NCBI GenBank assembly: GCA_025459195.1
Contig: JALORF010000002.1
Span: forward strand, 1 to 46,454
Source: Beijerinckiaceae bacterium
GTDB lineage: Bacteria > Pseudomonadota > Alphaproteobacteria > Rhizobiales > Beijerinckiaceae
DNA length: 46,454 bases
Direction of reading: 5' to 3'
The position numbers were made by a program, and so were the translations under genes. Shown one piece after another: positions 411 through 18,225 of the stretch. Positions within the stretch are counted from its first letter, which is position 1; every line of letters starts with the position of its first letter. The notes below the pieces were generated by a model. The model was not told where the DNA came from. It saw only the letters and a program-made list of their open reading frames with translations, and searched no databases.

Positions 411-1607
411 TCAGGGGCAAGGATCGGCGGGGTGCTGGTCGAACAGGTTCCACTTCAGGTCGTTAATCTCGATGACGAAGCCGGGAAGCTGCGCATCGCG
501 GGCGGCGTTGAAGCAGGTGCCATCGCCGGTGACACCGGTGAAGCGGATGCCCTTCATGGCTTCGCGGATGGCGGTGCGCTCCTCGGCGCGCTTGGCAGGG
601 TCGCCCGTGACGGCGGCCTTCTCCATGGCCTGCTTGAGCAGGTAGACGATGTCATAGGCCTGTGCGTCGGTGTGATGCGGCACCTTCTTGGTGACCAGCC
701 CGCGCTTGGCATTTTCCTCGGCGAACTTCCTCGTGAAGCTGCGGGTTGCCTCGTTGCGGTCGGACCAGAAGCCGGCGACGATCAACAGCCCGTCGGCGTC
801 GCGGCCGAACAGGTCGAGCGCGTTGGGATCGGCGAAGATCTGCGAGCCGATGACGCGGCCTGTGAAGCCCTGCCGGCGCAATTCCTTGATGACCTTGCCG
901 GCACTGTCCGGGGTGGCGGCGAGCGCGACCACATCCGGGTTGCGCTGCACGATCTGGGCGATCTGCGGCGCGACATCGAAGCTGCGATACTGGAAGGCGA
1001 TCGGCTCGCCGAAGGCGATGCCCGAGGCGCGCAGGATGGCCGGATAGAACTGGGTGCCCGAGATGTTCGAGACGCGCTCGTCCGAGAGATACATGATCTC
1101 GGCCTTGTCGGTCTTGATGTTCTTCTTGCGCAGGCTGGCGATCAGGCGTCCGAACTGTTTGCCCTCGTCGGCCGTCAGGCGCCACGCATAGCTGAAATTG
1201 CCGGTCAGGCCTGGCTGAGAGGCAGCATTGGGCATCTGCACCACGCCGAGGCGCTCACCCACCGGGAAGGCGACGGCGGCCTCGCCCGATGAGAACGGCC
1301 CGATGATCGCCAGCGCGCCATCATCCTGCACCAGCTTCTGGGTGGCGGTGGCGGCCTGGCGCGGATCGGAGCCGGTGTCGAACTTGACCAGGCGGATCTT
1401 CCTGCCGTTGACCCCGCCCCTGGCGTTGATTTCCTCGACCGCAATGTCCACCGACGTCTCGGTGGCTTCGCCCACGGTCTTGAGCGGGCCGGACTTGACC
1501 ATGCTCAGGCCGAGCACGATCTCCTGCGCGCCGGCTGAGACGGGCATGAGGCACGGCCCGGCCAGGGCCAACGCCGCGAAGGTCAGGGGTGTCAGGCGAT
1601 GTGTCAT
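411..1607 (-). CDS. Branched-chain amino acid-type ABC transporter substrate-binding protein
   Basis: Periplasmic type I substrate-binding protein (LivK/peripla_BP_6 family, 398 aa). A Sec signal peptide is visible at residues 1-27, ending ...VSAGAQ before EIVLGLS. The mature part has the usual opening with KSG, followed by AVEEINARGGVNGRK, a family hallmark. It is the last gene of a Liv-type operon: its ATG overlaps the LivF stop as TGATG, so translation is coupled. Family members bind amino acids, but also amides, urea, aromatic acids and other small anions. In this island the ligand is probably the catabolic substrate. The start is supported by the overlap and the signal peptide. Confidence 0.92.
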   Translation of the reverse strand: MTHRLTPLTFAALALAGPCLMPVSAGAQEIVLGLSMVKSGPLKTVGEATETSVDIAVEEINARGGVNGRKIRLVKFDTGSDPRQAATATQKLVQDDGALAIIGPFSSGEAAVAFPVGERLGVVQMPNAASQPGLTGNFSYAWRLTADEGKQFGRLIASLRKKNIKTDKAEIMYLSDERVSNISGTQFYPAILRASGIAFGEPIAFQYRSFDVAPQIAQIVQRNPDVVALAATPDSAGKVIKELRRQGFTGRVIGSQIFADPNALDLFGRDADGLLIVAGFWSDRNEATRSFTRKFAEENAKRGLVTKKVPHHTDAQAYDIVYLLKQAMEKAAVTGDPAKRAEERTAIREAMKGIRFTGVTGDGTCFNAARDAQLPGFVIEINDLKWNLFDQHPADPCP

Positions 1608-2386
1608 CAGGCTCTCCCGTTGCTGGATGGAGGGGTGGCAGGTGGTGATGAAAGTGGCGCGGCCGGTGTTGCGGCTGGTGCAGCGTGGCCGAGATAGGCG
1701 GCGGCCAGGCGGTCATTGTGGCGCAGGTCATCGGCCGGACCCTGAAGCACGACGCTGCCCAGTTCCATGACCAGCCCGCGCGAAGCGACTTCGAGCGCCA
1801 TTTGCGTGTTCTGCTCGACCAGAAGAATGGCCAGCCCCTCATCGCGCAGGCTGCCGAGCAGGCCGAACAGGCGCTCGACGAGCAGCGGCGACAGGCCAAG
1901 CGACGGCTCGTCCAGCATCATCAGCCGGGGCTTCGCCAGCAGCGCTCGGCTGATGGCCAGCATCTGCTGCTCGCCGCCCGAGAGCACCGAGGCCGGCATG
2001 TGCCGGCGTGCCGCCAGATTGGGGAAGCGGTCATAGATGCCGTCGACATCGCGGGCGACGCCGCCATCGTGGCGGCAATAGGCCCCCATCAGCAGGTTCT
2101 CGTGCACGCTGAGGCTGATCATGATCTGCCGGCCCTCCGGCACCAGCGCCAGATGGCGCTGGAGGCGCTGGGGCGGGGACATCCGCGTGATGTCGACGCC
2201 GTCGAAGCGGATCTGCCCACCTGCCGCCGGCACCATGCCTTGCAAGGCGCGCAACAGCGATGTCTTGCCCGCACCATTGGCCCCGAGCACGGTGACGACC
2301 TCGTCCTGGCCCACAGACAACGACACGCCCCTGACCGCATGGGTGCGGCCATAGCGCACGTCGAGGCCTTCGACCTCAAGCAGCAT
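1607..2386 (-). CDS. livF: ABC transporter ATP-binding protein, LivF type
   Basis: One of the two cytoplasmic ATPases of the Liv-type importer (259 aa from this start). Walker A GANGAGKTS lies at about residues 35-43, the signature LSGGEQQ at about 135, and Walker B LMMLDEP follows. The fold opens with LLEVEGLDVRYG, typical of LivF. The start at 2386 is chosen because GGGAGG sits just upstream and because a longer in-frame extension (to 2449) is Arg-rich, not conserved in appearance, and would run deep into livG. It overlaps the livG end by 11 bp. A C-terminal Ala/Pro/Ser tail of about 25 residues is longer than usual. Confidence 0.92.
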   Translation of the reverse strand: MLLEVEGLDVRYGRTHAVRGVSLSVGQDEVVTVLGANGAGKTSLLRALQGMVPAAGGQIRFDGVDITRMSPPQRLQRHLALVPEGRQIMISLSVHENLLMGAYCRHDGGVARDVDGIYDRFPNLAARRHMPASVLSGGEQQMLAISRALLAKPRLMMLDEPSLGLSPLLVERLFGLLGSLRDEGLAILLVEQNTQMALEVASRGLVMELGSVVLQGPADDLRHNDRLAAAYLGHAAPAATPAAPLSSPPATPPSSNGRA

Positions 2387-16930: not shown

Positions 16931-16950
16931 TGACCGGGCGCGCCCGGTCA
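16931..16950. terminator. 20-bp perfect palindrome between convergent genes
   Basis: TGACCGGGCGCGCCCGGTCA is self-complementary over all 20 bases and sits between the GntR stop (16917) and the stop of the second CoA-transferase, whose TGA it includes. It could form a hairpin in transcripts from both sides. No U-tract follows, so intrinsic termination is uncertain. Confidence 0.4.
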
Positions 16951-18225
16951 GTCGCTTGCGCGATTCTTCGCCTTGCTGGCCTCGGTCACGCCGCTCGTCC
17001 GAAGGGCCTCGATCTCGGCCTCGGTGTAGCCGAGCGCCGCCAGCCAGCGGGCCGTATCCTGCCCAAGGACCGGCGGGGGCGCCGGTTGGGGAAAGGGCTC
17101 GCCCAGCCGAAAGCCGGGGCGCGTCACCCTCAATGGTGCGCCTGCCGATGTTTCGCCGGCAATGTCCTCGACAAAGCCACGCTCCGTGACCTGCGCCTCG
17201 CGCAGCACCTGCGGCACGGTCAGCACGCAACCGGACGGCACGCCACGCGCGTTGAACAGGGCCTCCCATTCGGGGGCTCCACGCGCCGCCAGCGCCTTTT
17301 CAAGCTCCAGCGTCAGGGCTGCACGGTTCACCTTCCGTGACTGCCGATCGGCAAAGCGCGCATCGCTGACCAGATCGGGCCGCCCCACGACATCGCACAG
17401 CGCCTCGTATTGCTTCTGCTCGTTGGCGGCGATGTTGAGCGGGCCGGTTGCCGTGCGGAAGGTGCCGGAGGGGGCGGCGGTCATGTTGTCATTGCCCATC
17501 GCCTGAGGCTCGACGCCGCCATTGAGATGGTTGGACACAACCCAGCCCATGGCCGCCATGGTTGCTTCCAGCAGCGAGACATCGATCTGCCGGCCACGAC
17601 CGGTGCGGCGCTGCTCCACAAGGGCTGCGGCAATGGCGAAGGCCGCCGTCAGCCCGGCGATCGTGTCCGAAATCGGAAAGCCGGTGCGAAGCGGCGCGCT
17701 GGCAGCATCTCCTGTCACGCTCATCGCTCCTGACAGGCCTTGCACGATCTGGTCATAGGCCGGCCGCGCAGCCCAGGGGCCATCCTGCCCGAACCCGGAA
17801 ATGGCACAATAGACGATGCGCGGATTGCGCGCGGCCAGCACGGCATGGGACAGGCCCAGCCGCTCCATGACGCCGGGCCGGAAATTCTCCAGCACCACAT
17901 CGGCGTGATCGACCAGCCGCAGGAACGCCTCCTTGCCGGCCTGTGCCTTCAGATCAAGCGTCACCGACTGCTTGCCGGCATTGACCGCCACGAAGGACAG
18001 CCCCATCAGCCGGGCGGCCATGGCCGGGTCCGAACCCAGCTTGCGGGCCAGATCCCCGCCATCCGGGTTCTCGATCTTGATCACCTCGGCCCCGAGGCGC
18101 ACCAGATTGTAGCCGCAGAACGGACCGGCCAGCACATTCGACAGATCGAGCACTCGCACGCCAGACAAGGGCAAGGATGCGGCATATGGATCGATTTCTG
18201 CTGAAGCTGGCCCCGGCAACGTCAT
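16948..18225 (-). CDS. Class III (CaiB/BaiF) CoA-transferase, second copy
   Basis: 425-aa enzyme of the same family as the one at 13906 but clearly divergent in sequence, so not a recent duplication. Motifs: VRVLDLSNVLAGPFCGYNLVRLGAEVIKIE, VLENFRPGVMERLGL near 111-125, and catalytic Asp187 in PISDTIAG. Start at 18225 chosen because GAGAGGGGG precedes it; the longer frame would run through the neighbouring tRNA gene. It faces the GntR gene. It may serve a second CoA-activation step of the island's pathway or be an unrelated neighbour, since no palindrome of the shared type was found upstream. Confidence 0.9.
   Translation of the reverse strand: MTLPGPASAEIDPYAASLPLSGVRVLDLSNVLAGPFCGYNLVRLGAEVIKIENPDGGDLARKLGSDPAMAARLMGLSFVAVNAGKQSVTLDLKAQAGKEAFLRLVDHADVVLENFRPGVMERLGLSHAVLAARNPRIVYCAISGFGQDGPWAARPAYDQIVQGLSGAMSVTGDAASAPLRTGFPISDTIAGLTAAFAIAAALVEQRRTGRGRQIDVSLLEATMAAMGWVVSNHLNGGVEPQAMGNDNMTAAPSGTFRTATGPLNIAANEQKQYEALCDVVGRPDLVSDARFADRQSRKVNRAALTLELEKALAARGAPEWEALFNARGVPSGCVLTVPQVLREAQVTERGFVEDIAGETSAGAPLRVTRPGFRLGEPFPQPAPPPVLGQDTARWLAALGYTEAEIEALRTSGVTEASKAKNRASD

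Follow-up and report, generated by a model that had tools for sequence, protein, structure and literature searches.

A seventeen-gene island of a Beijerinckiaceae bacterium proposed to direct the catabolism of a small cyclic imide or lactam

Several described systems share enzymes with a catabolic gene island that we examined in a member of the Beijerinckiaceae (assembly GCA_025459195.1, contig JALORF010000002.1). The island occupies positions 411 to 18225 of the stretch of DNA analyzed, which is 46,454 nucleotides long and is referred to here as the window. In the nicotinate nicCXDFE clusters of Pseudomonas and Bordetella, as in the island, genes for a flavin monooxygenase (FMO), a NicF-type amidase and a protein of the maleate isomerase fold are grouped together. 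The island differs in that its FMO is nearer to PnpA and HspB, a PuuE-like hydrolase is added, a lyase module follows and the isomerase-fold protein lacks cysteines at the catalytic positions. No NicX was recognized in the island, although the model used, PF02073, is a poor test for NicX (matches in 0 of 2 genomes). The cyclic imide pathway (HxnM/HxnN of Aspergillus nidulans and the imidase of Pseudomonas putida YZ-26), compared by description only, resembles the island in that an amidase acts after ring opening by an enzyme of the PuuE/HpPgdA kind; the island adds the FMO, the isomerase-fold protein, a metallo-beta-lactamase (MBL)-fold hydrolase, two importers and a carbon-carbon lyase module. 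The PuuE allantoinase has the same fold and several of the same conserved positions as the island hydrolase, which differs in score and gene context. Lyases of the PrpB/dimethylmalate lyase/petal death protein family, with a K[KR]CG motif, occur in relatives of the island, some with LeuC-type genes, whereas the window instead has a hydroxymethylglutaryl coenzyme A (HMG-CoA) lyase-like enzyme (HMGL) and a class III CoA-transferase. Both window enzymes fall in the families of HMG-CoA lyase and succinate-hydroxymethylglutarate CoA-transferase but here a shared palindrome ties them to an imide/amide core. A literature search, from whose reach the subscription literature was largely excluded, found no description of this cluster.

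We read the island as an accessory regulon dedicated to the catabolism of a small cyclic imide or lactam, with a probability of roughly 0.5. Gene set, synteny, co-occurrence and the palindrome were observed in the DNA, and the chemistry and regulation described below were deduced from them. Pfam, NCBIfam and tRNA searches of the window located 17 genes between a tRNA-Gln gene (CTG; 83..156, minus strand) and a tRNA-Glu gene (TTC; 18323..18397, minus strand), with recJ beyond the latter, and every gene class named in an initial annotation of this DNA was present. That annotation had proposed a pathway for an N-heteroaromatic or amide-bearing dicarboxylate, incompletely resembling nicotinate and vitamin B6 catabolism. 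A single unit acting on an amide- or imide-bearing compound and ending in a dicarboxylate was supported, as was its distinctness from nicotinate and vitamin B6 catabolism as known, and no match to a characterized cluster was found in the searches made. An N-heteroaromatic substrate is possible, but a cyclic imide or lactam is the more direct reading of the enzyme set.

Comparison of gene neighborhoods across genomes, one of the checks put forward in that annotation, indicated that the core is co-conserved. In one congener (G033), the island was found in the same order with recJ beside it, and 16 of the 17 genes were 84 to 98% identical. The best PuuE match in the other 35 congeners, among the matches listed, was at most 36% identical (E value, 7e-48 or worse); the island is therefore accessory. 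Co-occurrence was analyzed in 384 genomes of the class, with the source genome left out and E value cutoffs of our choosing. A PuuE orthologue (55 to 61% identity) was present in 16 of these genomes, and the next match dropped to 38%; genome G419 (38%; E value, 8.6e-62) was counted for the isomerase-fold protein and the FMO but not for PuuE. All 16 genomes also carried the isomerase-fold protein, which was present in 42 of the 384 (1.75 expected; P = 2e-17), and 12 carried the FMO, present in 31 of the 384 (1.29 expected; P = 1e-11). Co-occurrence of CoA-transferase 1 and the FMO was detected in 9 of 25 genomes (2.0 expected; P = 4e-5). These P values are optimistic, since the genomes are related.

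The surroundings of PuuE were examined in 80 loci, the best 80 of at least 590 confirmed candidates, so that the set leans to close relatives; some are duplicate records of other fetched stretches. Each locus extended up to 10 kb on either side where the contig allowed, and 53 were at least 15 kb long. They derived from Hyphomicrobiales, Rhodospirillales, sphingomonads, Burkholderiales/Comamonadaceae, Alteromonas and others, the nearest relatives by PuuE among named genomes being metagenome-assembled genomes of Hyphomicrobiales. Using family-specific identity cutoffs of 25 to 55% over at least half of the query (55% for CoA-transferase 1 and 45% for HMGL), the partners detected were LivH (39 loci), LivG (36), the isomerase-fold protein (33), the FMO (32), a PrpB-type lyase (family c9; 26), the MBL hydrolase (24), the isochorismatase-family amidase (ISO; 22), a short-chain dehydrogenase/reductase (SDR; 13), LeuC (10), HyuB (7), GntR (4) and the TAXI solute-binding protein (3). 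Subsets of a core consisting of the PuuE-like enzyme, FMO, NicF-like amidase, MBL hydrolase, isomerase-fold protein and leucine-isoleucine-valine (LIV)-type importer turn up in several bacterial orders. With LeuC in only 10 of the 80 loci, a step catalyzed by a LeuCD hydratase was no longer considered a requirement, and no LeuC was seen in 28.9 kb around the Novosphingobium capsulatum cluster, for which the gene table is incomplete.

The two halves of the island were also linked by a palindrome, TTGTCYGGACAA, present in both divergent promoters, PuuE/FMO and HMGL/CoA-transferase. The proposed operator in the first gap is a perfect 12-base palindrome (TTGTCCGGACAA; 6090..6101), and a palindrome search detected the second (AGTTGTCTGGACAACT; 13877..13892). 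The exact sequence occurred at two places only in the window (one counted on both strands) and in none of 100 shuffles. A one-mismatch variant (TTGTCCGGACAT; 12760..12771) was located at the 5' end of the called TAXI open reading frame (ORF), and an identical 12-mer lies 5' of the TAXI match in locus L097; if the variant is an operator, the true TAXI start lies below 12760. Divergent FMO/PuuE pairs numbered 15 in all among the 80 loci at the chosen cutoffs. Five of these gaps (L092, L093, L095, L096 and L097) contained an exact TTGTCYRGACAA, and these were the sole exact occurrences in the 1.30 Mb of the 80 loci. The mean over 20 half-sites of equal composition, this one included, was 0.6, and any other half-site gave at most 2. 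No other palindrome of this form was detected in 10 gaps hand-picked from the loci and the window. Congener G033 carries both window sites, and L093, L095 and L096 have two one-mismatch copies in the lyase/ISO gap, while L097 has one upstream of TAXI. Exact copies are present in genome G307 in the equivalent HMGL/CoA-transferase gap (L197:6196) and where the called TAXI ORF begins, and in L236 and L237 two copies each precede a cluster containing HMGL and ISO.

A candidate binder of the palindrome is the island's GntR regulator with a UTRA domain (16093..16917, plus strand; profile match). GntR homologues (at least 100 residues and at least 30% identity) were present in the site-bearing G033 (L031), L093, L095, L096, L097 and L253; L254 had a 114-residue GntR match but no site. 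The palindrome starts 4 bases beyond the -10 element of a predicted sigma70-type promoter reading into PuuE (TTGACA-16-CATCAT; 6106..6133, minus strand), so that a repressor bound there would block initiation. This promoter is weak evidence alone, the scan of the window having yielded 3 promoters against 1.8 expected in shuffles. We infer that the GntR protein binds the palindrome. Because the same palindrome occurs in both divergent promoters and also in close relatives, the two halves seem to form a single regulon, possibly under the island GntR protein, a reading that is new here. Co-occurrence and the shared palindrome together argue that the island is more than a chance assembly.

The gene initially annotated as a deacetylase/amidase (5095..6018, minus strand) could be refined, from profile and PDB matches and the fold predicted by AlphaFold2 (AF2), to a PuuE-like cyclic amidohydrolase and putative imidase. 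The protein was closest to PuuE-type allantoinases (PDB 1z7a, 149.2 bits), and the best folds for its AF2 model (pLDDT, 82.9; residues 41 to 65 below 50) were 1z7a and the PuuE structure 3cl6. Residues N29, E31, H119 and H253, which we take to matter for catalysis, were invariant in 21 of 21 sequences and, with the fold match, place the protein in this fold family. A score of 168.7 bits with TIGR03212, for which the cutoff is 424.6, led to rejection of a PuuE allantoinase and of the allantoin pathway. The isochorismatase-type amidohydrolase, ISO (9047..9778, minus strand), was borne out, with PDB 3ot4/3uao as the closest match (230.8 bits) and N-carbamoylsarcosine amidase as the second (157.8 bits). 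In the part of PMC5806882 available to us, 3uao is NicF and the NicF triad is Asp29, Lys117 and Cys150. Alignment of ISO placed the motifs VDF, VRK and TTSGC at the triad, and the protein is predicted to be a NicF-type amidase; its called start may be too early, since the NicF match starts at residue 36.

The nearest PDB matches of the group A FMO (6150..7349, plus strand; profile match) were PnpA (187.8 bits) and HspB, a 6-hydroxy-3-succinoylpyridine 3-monooxygenase (158.1 bits). Both enzymes hydroxylate with loss of a substituent. The MBL-fold hydrolase (7359..8243, minus strand), AidB-lactonase-like by profile and PDB match, was below the cutoff of the 4-pyridoxolactonase model NF047925 (54.1 versus 325), and the vitamin B6 pathway was rejected. 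The resemblance of the FMO to HspB would suit a bacterial analogue of the A. nidulans nicotinate route, in which the FMO and SDR would turn a hydroxypyridine into a six-membered imide for imidase opening and deamidation. This proposal also agrees with the available part of PMC9304392, where the cyclic imidase HxnM is related to HpPgdA, and through it to PuuE, and an amidase acts next. We consider such an analogue very doubtful, since the route described there ends at alpha-hydroxyglutarate with no need of a retro-aldol lyase, and a lyase module is present in the window and in L093 to L096.

The protein initially likened to maleate isomerase and arylmalonate decarboxylase (8268..9014, minus strand) belongs to the Asp/Glu racemase superfamily. 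The fold was confirmed (AF2 model pLDDT, 93.3; best match maleate isomerase 2xed, TM score 0.87) but the catalytic cysteines are absent: Met84 and Gly197 stand where the P. putida maleate isomerase has cysteines. Over 39 homologues, position 84 was M in 37 and L in 2, and position 197 was G in 38 with a gap in 1; a cysteine was present at the neighboring position 196 in 2 of the 39. The 39 include one fragment (L132) and some genes entered twice. The positions, presumably the catalytic cysteine sites, were set by alignment to P. putida Iso and to cysteine-bearing paralogues, an alignment to the Nocardia protein being off by 1 to 2 residues at the second site. A maleate isomerase (NicE/MaiA) with the known mechanism was rejected, neither cysteine being present in any homologue, as was an arylmalonate decarboxylase (NF052327, 56.2 versus a cutoff of 225; no cysteine at 197). 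The likeness to nicotinate catabolism thus holds for NicF and fails for NicE. A second paralogue of the isomerase-fold protein, with both cysteines retained, was observed at L253:19931-20701, L197:7442-8242 and L246:4932-5687, in L253 and L246 alongside a cysteine-less one. The cysteine-less protein, the partner most constantly associated with PuuE, is probably a refunctionalized member of the maleate isomerase fold.

These three proteins also bear on a ureide or hydantoin pathway, with the PuuE-like protein as an allantoinase-type opener, the isomerase-fold protein as a racemase and ISO as an N-carbamoyl amidohydrolase. PuuE is the nearest characterized family, a structure search indicated that hydantoin and allantoin racemases share the isomerase fold, the second ISO match is an N-carbamoylsarcosine amidase and HyuA/HyuB-type genes are present in related clusters. 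However, ISO is nearer to NicF, the PuuE-like protein scores far under the allantoinase cutoff, cysteines are missing from both catalytic positions of the isomerase-fold protein and a ureide pathway has no need of a malate-type lyase or HMGL end. A pathway of this kind therefore appears distinctly unlikely.

Both candidate terminal modules cleave carbon-carbon bonds: PrpB-type lyases, or HMGL with a CoA-transferase, cleave beta-hydroxy acids by retro-aldol chemistry. The window's HMGL (12826..13749, minus strand; motifs PRDGIQN, HFHDT and GGCPFAP) scored 301.1 bits with the HMG-CoA lyase model NF004283 (cutoff, 246), GGCPFAP being the signature cysteine motif. CoA-transferase 1 (13906..15183, plus strand) has a CoA_transf_3 domain, is nearest to 4ed9 and the succinate-hydroxymethylglutarate CoA-transferase 9br6, and has an Asp, which we assume to be catalytic, aligned with that of 9br6. 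In relatives, the lyase belongs to the PEP-mutase/ICL family and is of the methylisocitrate/2,3-dimethylmalate/petal death protein type; the K[KR]CG motif was present in 24 of 24 (KKCGH in 20, KRCGH in 1 and KKCGF in 3). In L093, L095 and L096 the gene order is GntR, lyase / ISO, isomerase-fold protein, MBL / FMO / PuuE, LivHMGF, substrate-binding protein. The genes of these loci correspond one to one with those of the window, apart from GntR and the lyase in place of TRAP, HMGL, CoA-transferase, SDR and GntR. This comparison suggests, as a further new point, that terminal cleavage has been swapped between a methylisocitrate/dimethylmalate-type lyase and HMGL with a CoA-transferase.

A pathway can be proposed from these parts. 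The compound would enter through the LIV-type ATP-binding cassette (ABC) or the TAXI-type tripartite ATP-independent periplasmic (TRAP) importer, and the FMO would oxidize the ring or its precursor. The PuuE-like enzyme would open a cyclic imide to a half-amide, from which the NicF-like amidase would remove ammonia to leave a substituted malate-type dicarboxylate; opening followed by deamidation is suggested by the presence together of the PuuE-like fold and the NicF-like amidase, and the substituted malate by both end modules cleaving beta-hydroxy acids. A cyclic imidase related to the PuuE-like kind is described in the part of PMC9304392 available to us. In the window, a class III CoA-transferase would activate the dicarboxylate and HMGL would make a retro-aldol cut to a 2-oxoacid and an acyl-CoA, and in close relatives a methylisocitrate/dimethylmalate-type lyase would make the equivalent cut without CoA. 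The GntR/UTRA protein would probably repress the operons through TTGTCYGGACAA, while the isomerase-fold protein and MBL hydrolase would act at steps without an assigned place. The system is widespread, without a characterized match in the searches made, and has a compact signature, namely a PuuE-like enzyme, a cysteine-less isomerase-fold protein, an HspB-type FMO and a NicF-like amidase, with a predicted operator in close relatives. A terminal swap between CoA-free and CoA-dependent chemistry under the same control is suggested. The substrate can be sought directly because the cluster is present in the named strains Allorhizobium pseudoryzae DSM 19479 and N. capsulatum HAMBI_0103.

A number of findings weigh against this reading. 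Allantoin is also opened by PuuE-type enzymes, and the imide assignment draws on family resemblance and the NicF-like partner. A simple motif test on 19 ISO homologues detected all three triad motifs in 10 and fewer in 9. PuuE's most constant partner, the isomerase-fold protein, has no assigned step in the pathway. Among the 36 PuuE loci with an FMO or isomerase-fold protein, 16 have the lyase and 20 have none; L092, the closest by PuuE, has MBL, FMO, PuuE and importer genes with no lyase seen. With two mismatches allowed, the palindrome had 7 matches in the window, a number reached by 7 of 100 shuffles and hence not unusual. The exact form was absent from 75 of the 80 loci, including 10 of the 15 divergent gaps, and from L094, whose gene content is much as in the palindrome-bearing loci. 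The exact L253 match falls within the called FMO reading frame, and L092, L197, L236 and L237 have the palindrome with no GntR homologue in the stretch. In G033 the seventeenth gene, ISO, is represented only by residues 1 to 55 (69% identity) in a 243-base gap without N (L030:15740-15984), and this stub between intact neighbors reflects a deletion or a misassembly; contig 8 of G033 carries another ISO homologue (47%) near a c9-type lyase (60%), LeuD and LeuC. PuuE and CoA-transferase 1 occurred together in only 3 of 16 genomes (1.04 expected; P = 0.08). Finally, HMGL and CoA-transferase 1 orthologues were found in 0 of the 80 PuuE loci at 45% and 55% identity, respectively, so that the lyase and CoA-transferase end of the initial annotation, though present in the window, is not in the conserved core.

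The last result would also be expected of two unrelated adjacent modules, an imide/amide core (PuuE, FMO, ISO, isomerase-fold protein, MBL and ABC importer) and a separate CoA-dependent module (HMGL, CoA-transferases, SDR, GntR and TRAP), and matches to HMGL and CoA-transferase 1 adjoin in many genomes without a PuuE orthologue. Such a division, and with it a CoA-dependent half serving a citramalate- or hydroxymethylglutarate-like acid, is unlikely, since the same palindrome lies in both halves of the window and of G033, as well as in the G307 HMGL/CoA-transferase gap. Furthermore, G307 (L197) places the HMGL/CoA-transferase 1 pair beside ISO, FMO, an isomerase-fold protein, TRAP, TAXI and SDR, and G414 (L250) beside HyuA/HyuB-type genes, ISO, the isomerase-fold protein and FMO. 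In the window, the genes located downstream of HMGL and sharing its strand include those for ISO, the isomerase-fold protein and MBL, which, judged by orientation, probably belong to the HMGL operon. In G378 (L247) a single stretch contains the HMGL/CoA-transferase 1 pair together with the lyase and LeuC- and LeuD-type genes, and weaker HMGL relatives (35 to 39%) were present in L148 and L162.

A more specific version of the imide or lactam pathway was considered, although as a whole it seems improbable: a bacterial route for alkyl-maleimides derived from tetrapyrroles (chlorophyll, heme and bilins), such as hematinic acid or methyl-ethyl-maleimide, in which either of two lyase modules could serve and the maleate isomerase fold would have acquired a new function that needs no cysteine. 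Chlorophyll and heme yield imides with a methyl group and an alkyl or propionate side chain. Imide opening and deamidation would give a methyl-alkyl-malate, and retro-aldol cleavage would give pyruvate and glutaryl- or butyryl-type products, pyruvate with glutarate or butyrate being expected from the methyl on the hydroxylated carbon. If true, such a substrate would supply a missing part of the picture of what becomes of chlorophyll and heme. In the part of PMC7318184 available to us, hematinic acid is reported in leaves, where maleimides were not detected by that study, and earlier work is cited for the occurrence of both maleimides and hematinic acid in senescent leaves and in lake sediments. 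In the comamonad loci L135, L142, L143 and L160 (L160:11955-14812), a carotenoid oxygenase (RPE65) family gene and an aldehyde dehydrogenase (ALDH) gene follow ISO; speculatively, their products could cut an exocyclic double bond.

Both importers named initially were borne out. The ABC importer is a complete LIV-type set on the minus strand, with a Peripla_BP_6 substrate-binding protein of the LIV/HAAT type (411..1607; homologue in 32 of the 80 PuuE loci) followed by profile matches to a LivF-type ATPase (1607..2386), a LivG-type ATPase (2376..3167), a LivM-type permease (3157..4032) and a LivH-type permease (4079..5098). The TAXI-TRAP importer consists of a fused permease (9818..11719, minus strand; TIGR02123, 465.4 versus a cutoff of 320.65) and the TAXI solute-binding protein (called ORF 11716..12819, minus strand; TIGR02122, 158.3 versus 84.35). 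Profile matches further identified the SDR oxidoreductase (15190..16008, plus strand) and class III CoA-transferase 2 (16948..18174, minus strand), which is 91% identical in G033 and occurred in 0 of the 80 PuuE loci at 45% identity or more. Gene orientation and spacing suggest five operons, two pairs of which would be transcribed from the two divergent promoters. Codon-position GC supported coding for most island genes, LivH being missed by that filter. Some program-called starts were too early, and the starts of LivM, HMGL and CoA-transferase 1 were re-read from the sequence. The source genome comprises 3.2 Mb in 253 contigs, of which the window is contig 199, and is probably metagenome assembled for that reason.

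Further clusters and genes were observed around these subjects. The A. pseudoryzae plasmid locus (L253), approximately 19 kb by our own gene calls in an almost unannotated record, carries both importers, FMO, isomerase-fold protein, PuuE, ALDH, SDR, MBL, GntR, the second isomerase-fold protein, lyase and ISO. A second cluster in the window's own genome (L194; G000:C247, 1976-15080) has a GntR-like gene, a LIV-type importer, a PrpB-type lyase, HyuB/HyuA-type genes, LeuC and LeuD; its LeuC shares 70% identity with the L095 protein. In 6 of 6 genus genomes searched, the source genome included, homologues of LeuC and of the lyase were present, with the lyase weak in G009. Where GntR and CoA-transferase 2 converge (16931-16950), a perfect 20-base GC-rich palindrome, TGACCGGGCGCGCCCGGTCA, is perhaps a terminator stem; the terminator scan was near chance (10 found versus 9.3 expected). 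A second polysaccharide deacetylase family gene lies outside the island at 41059-42153 (PF01522, 57.3 bits). The tRNA-Glu gene was considered as a candidate insertion site: in 7 congeners it also adjoins recJ, with differing called genes beyond, and the closest congener locus (L263) ends at a contig edge. In the window, recJ is adjoined at 20469-21680 by a gene for an FrhB/FdhB-type protein (coenzyme F420 hydrogenase beta subunit family).

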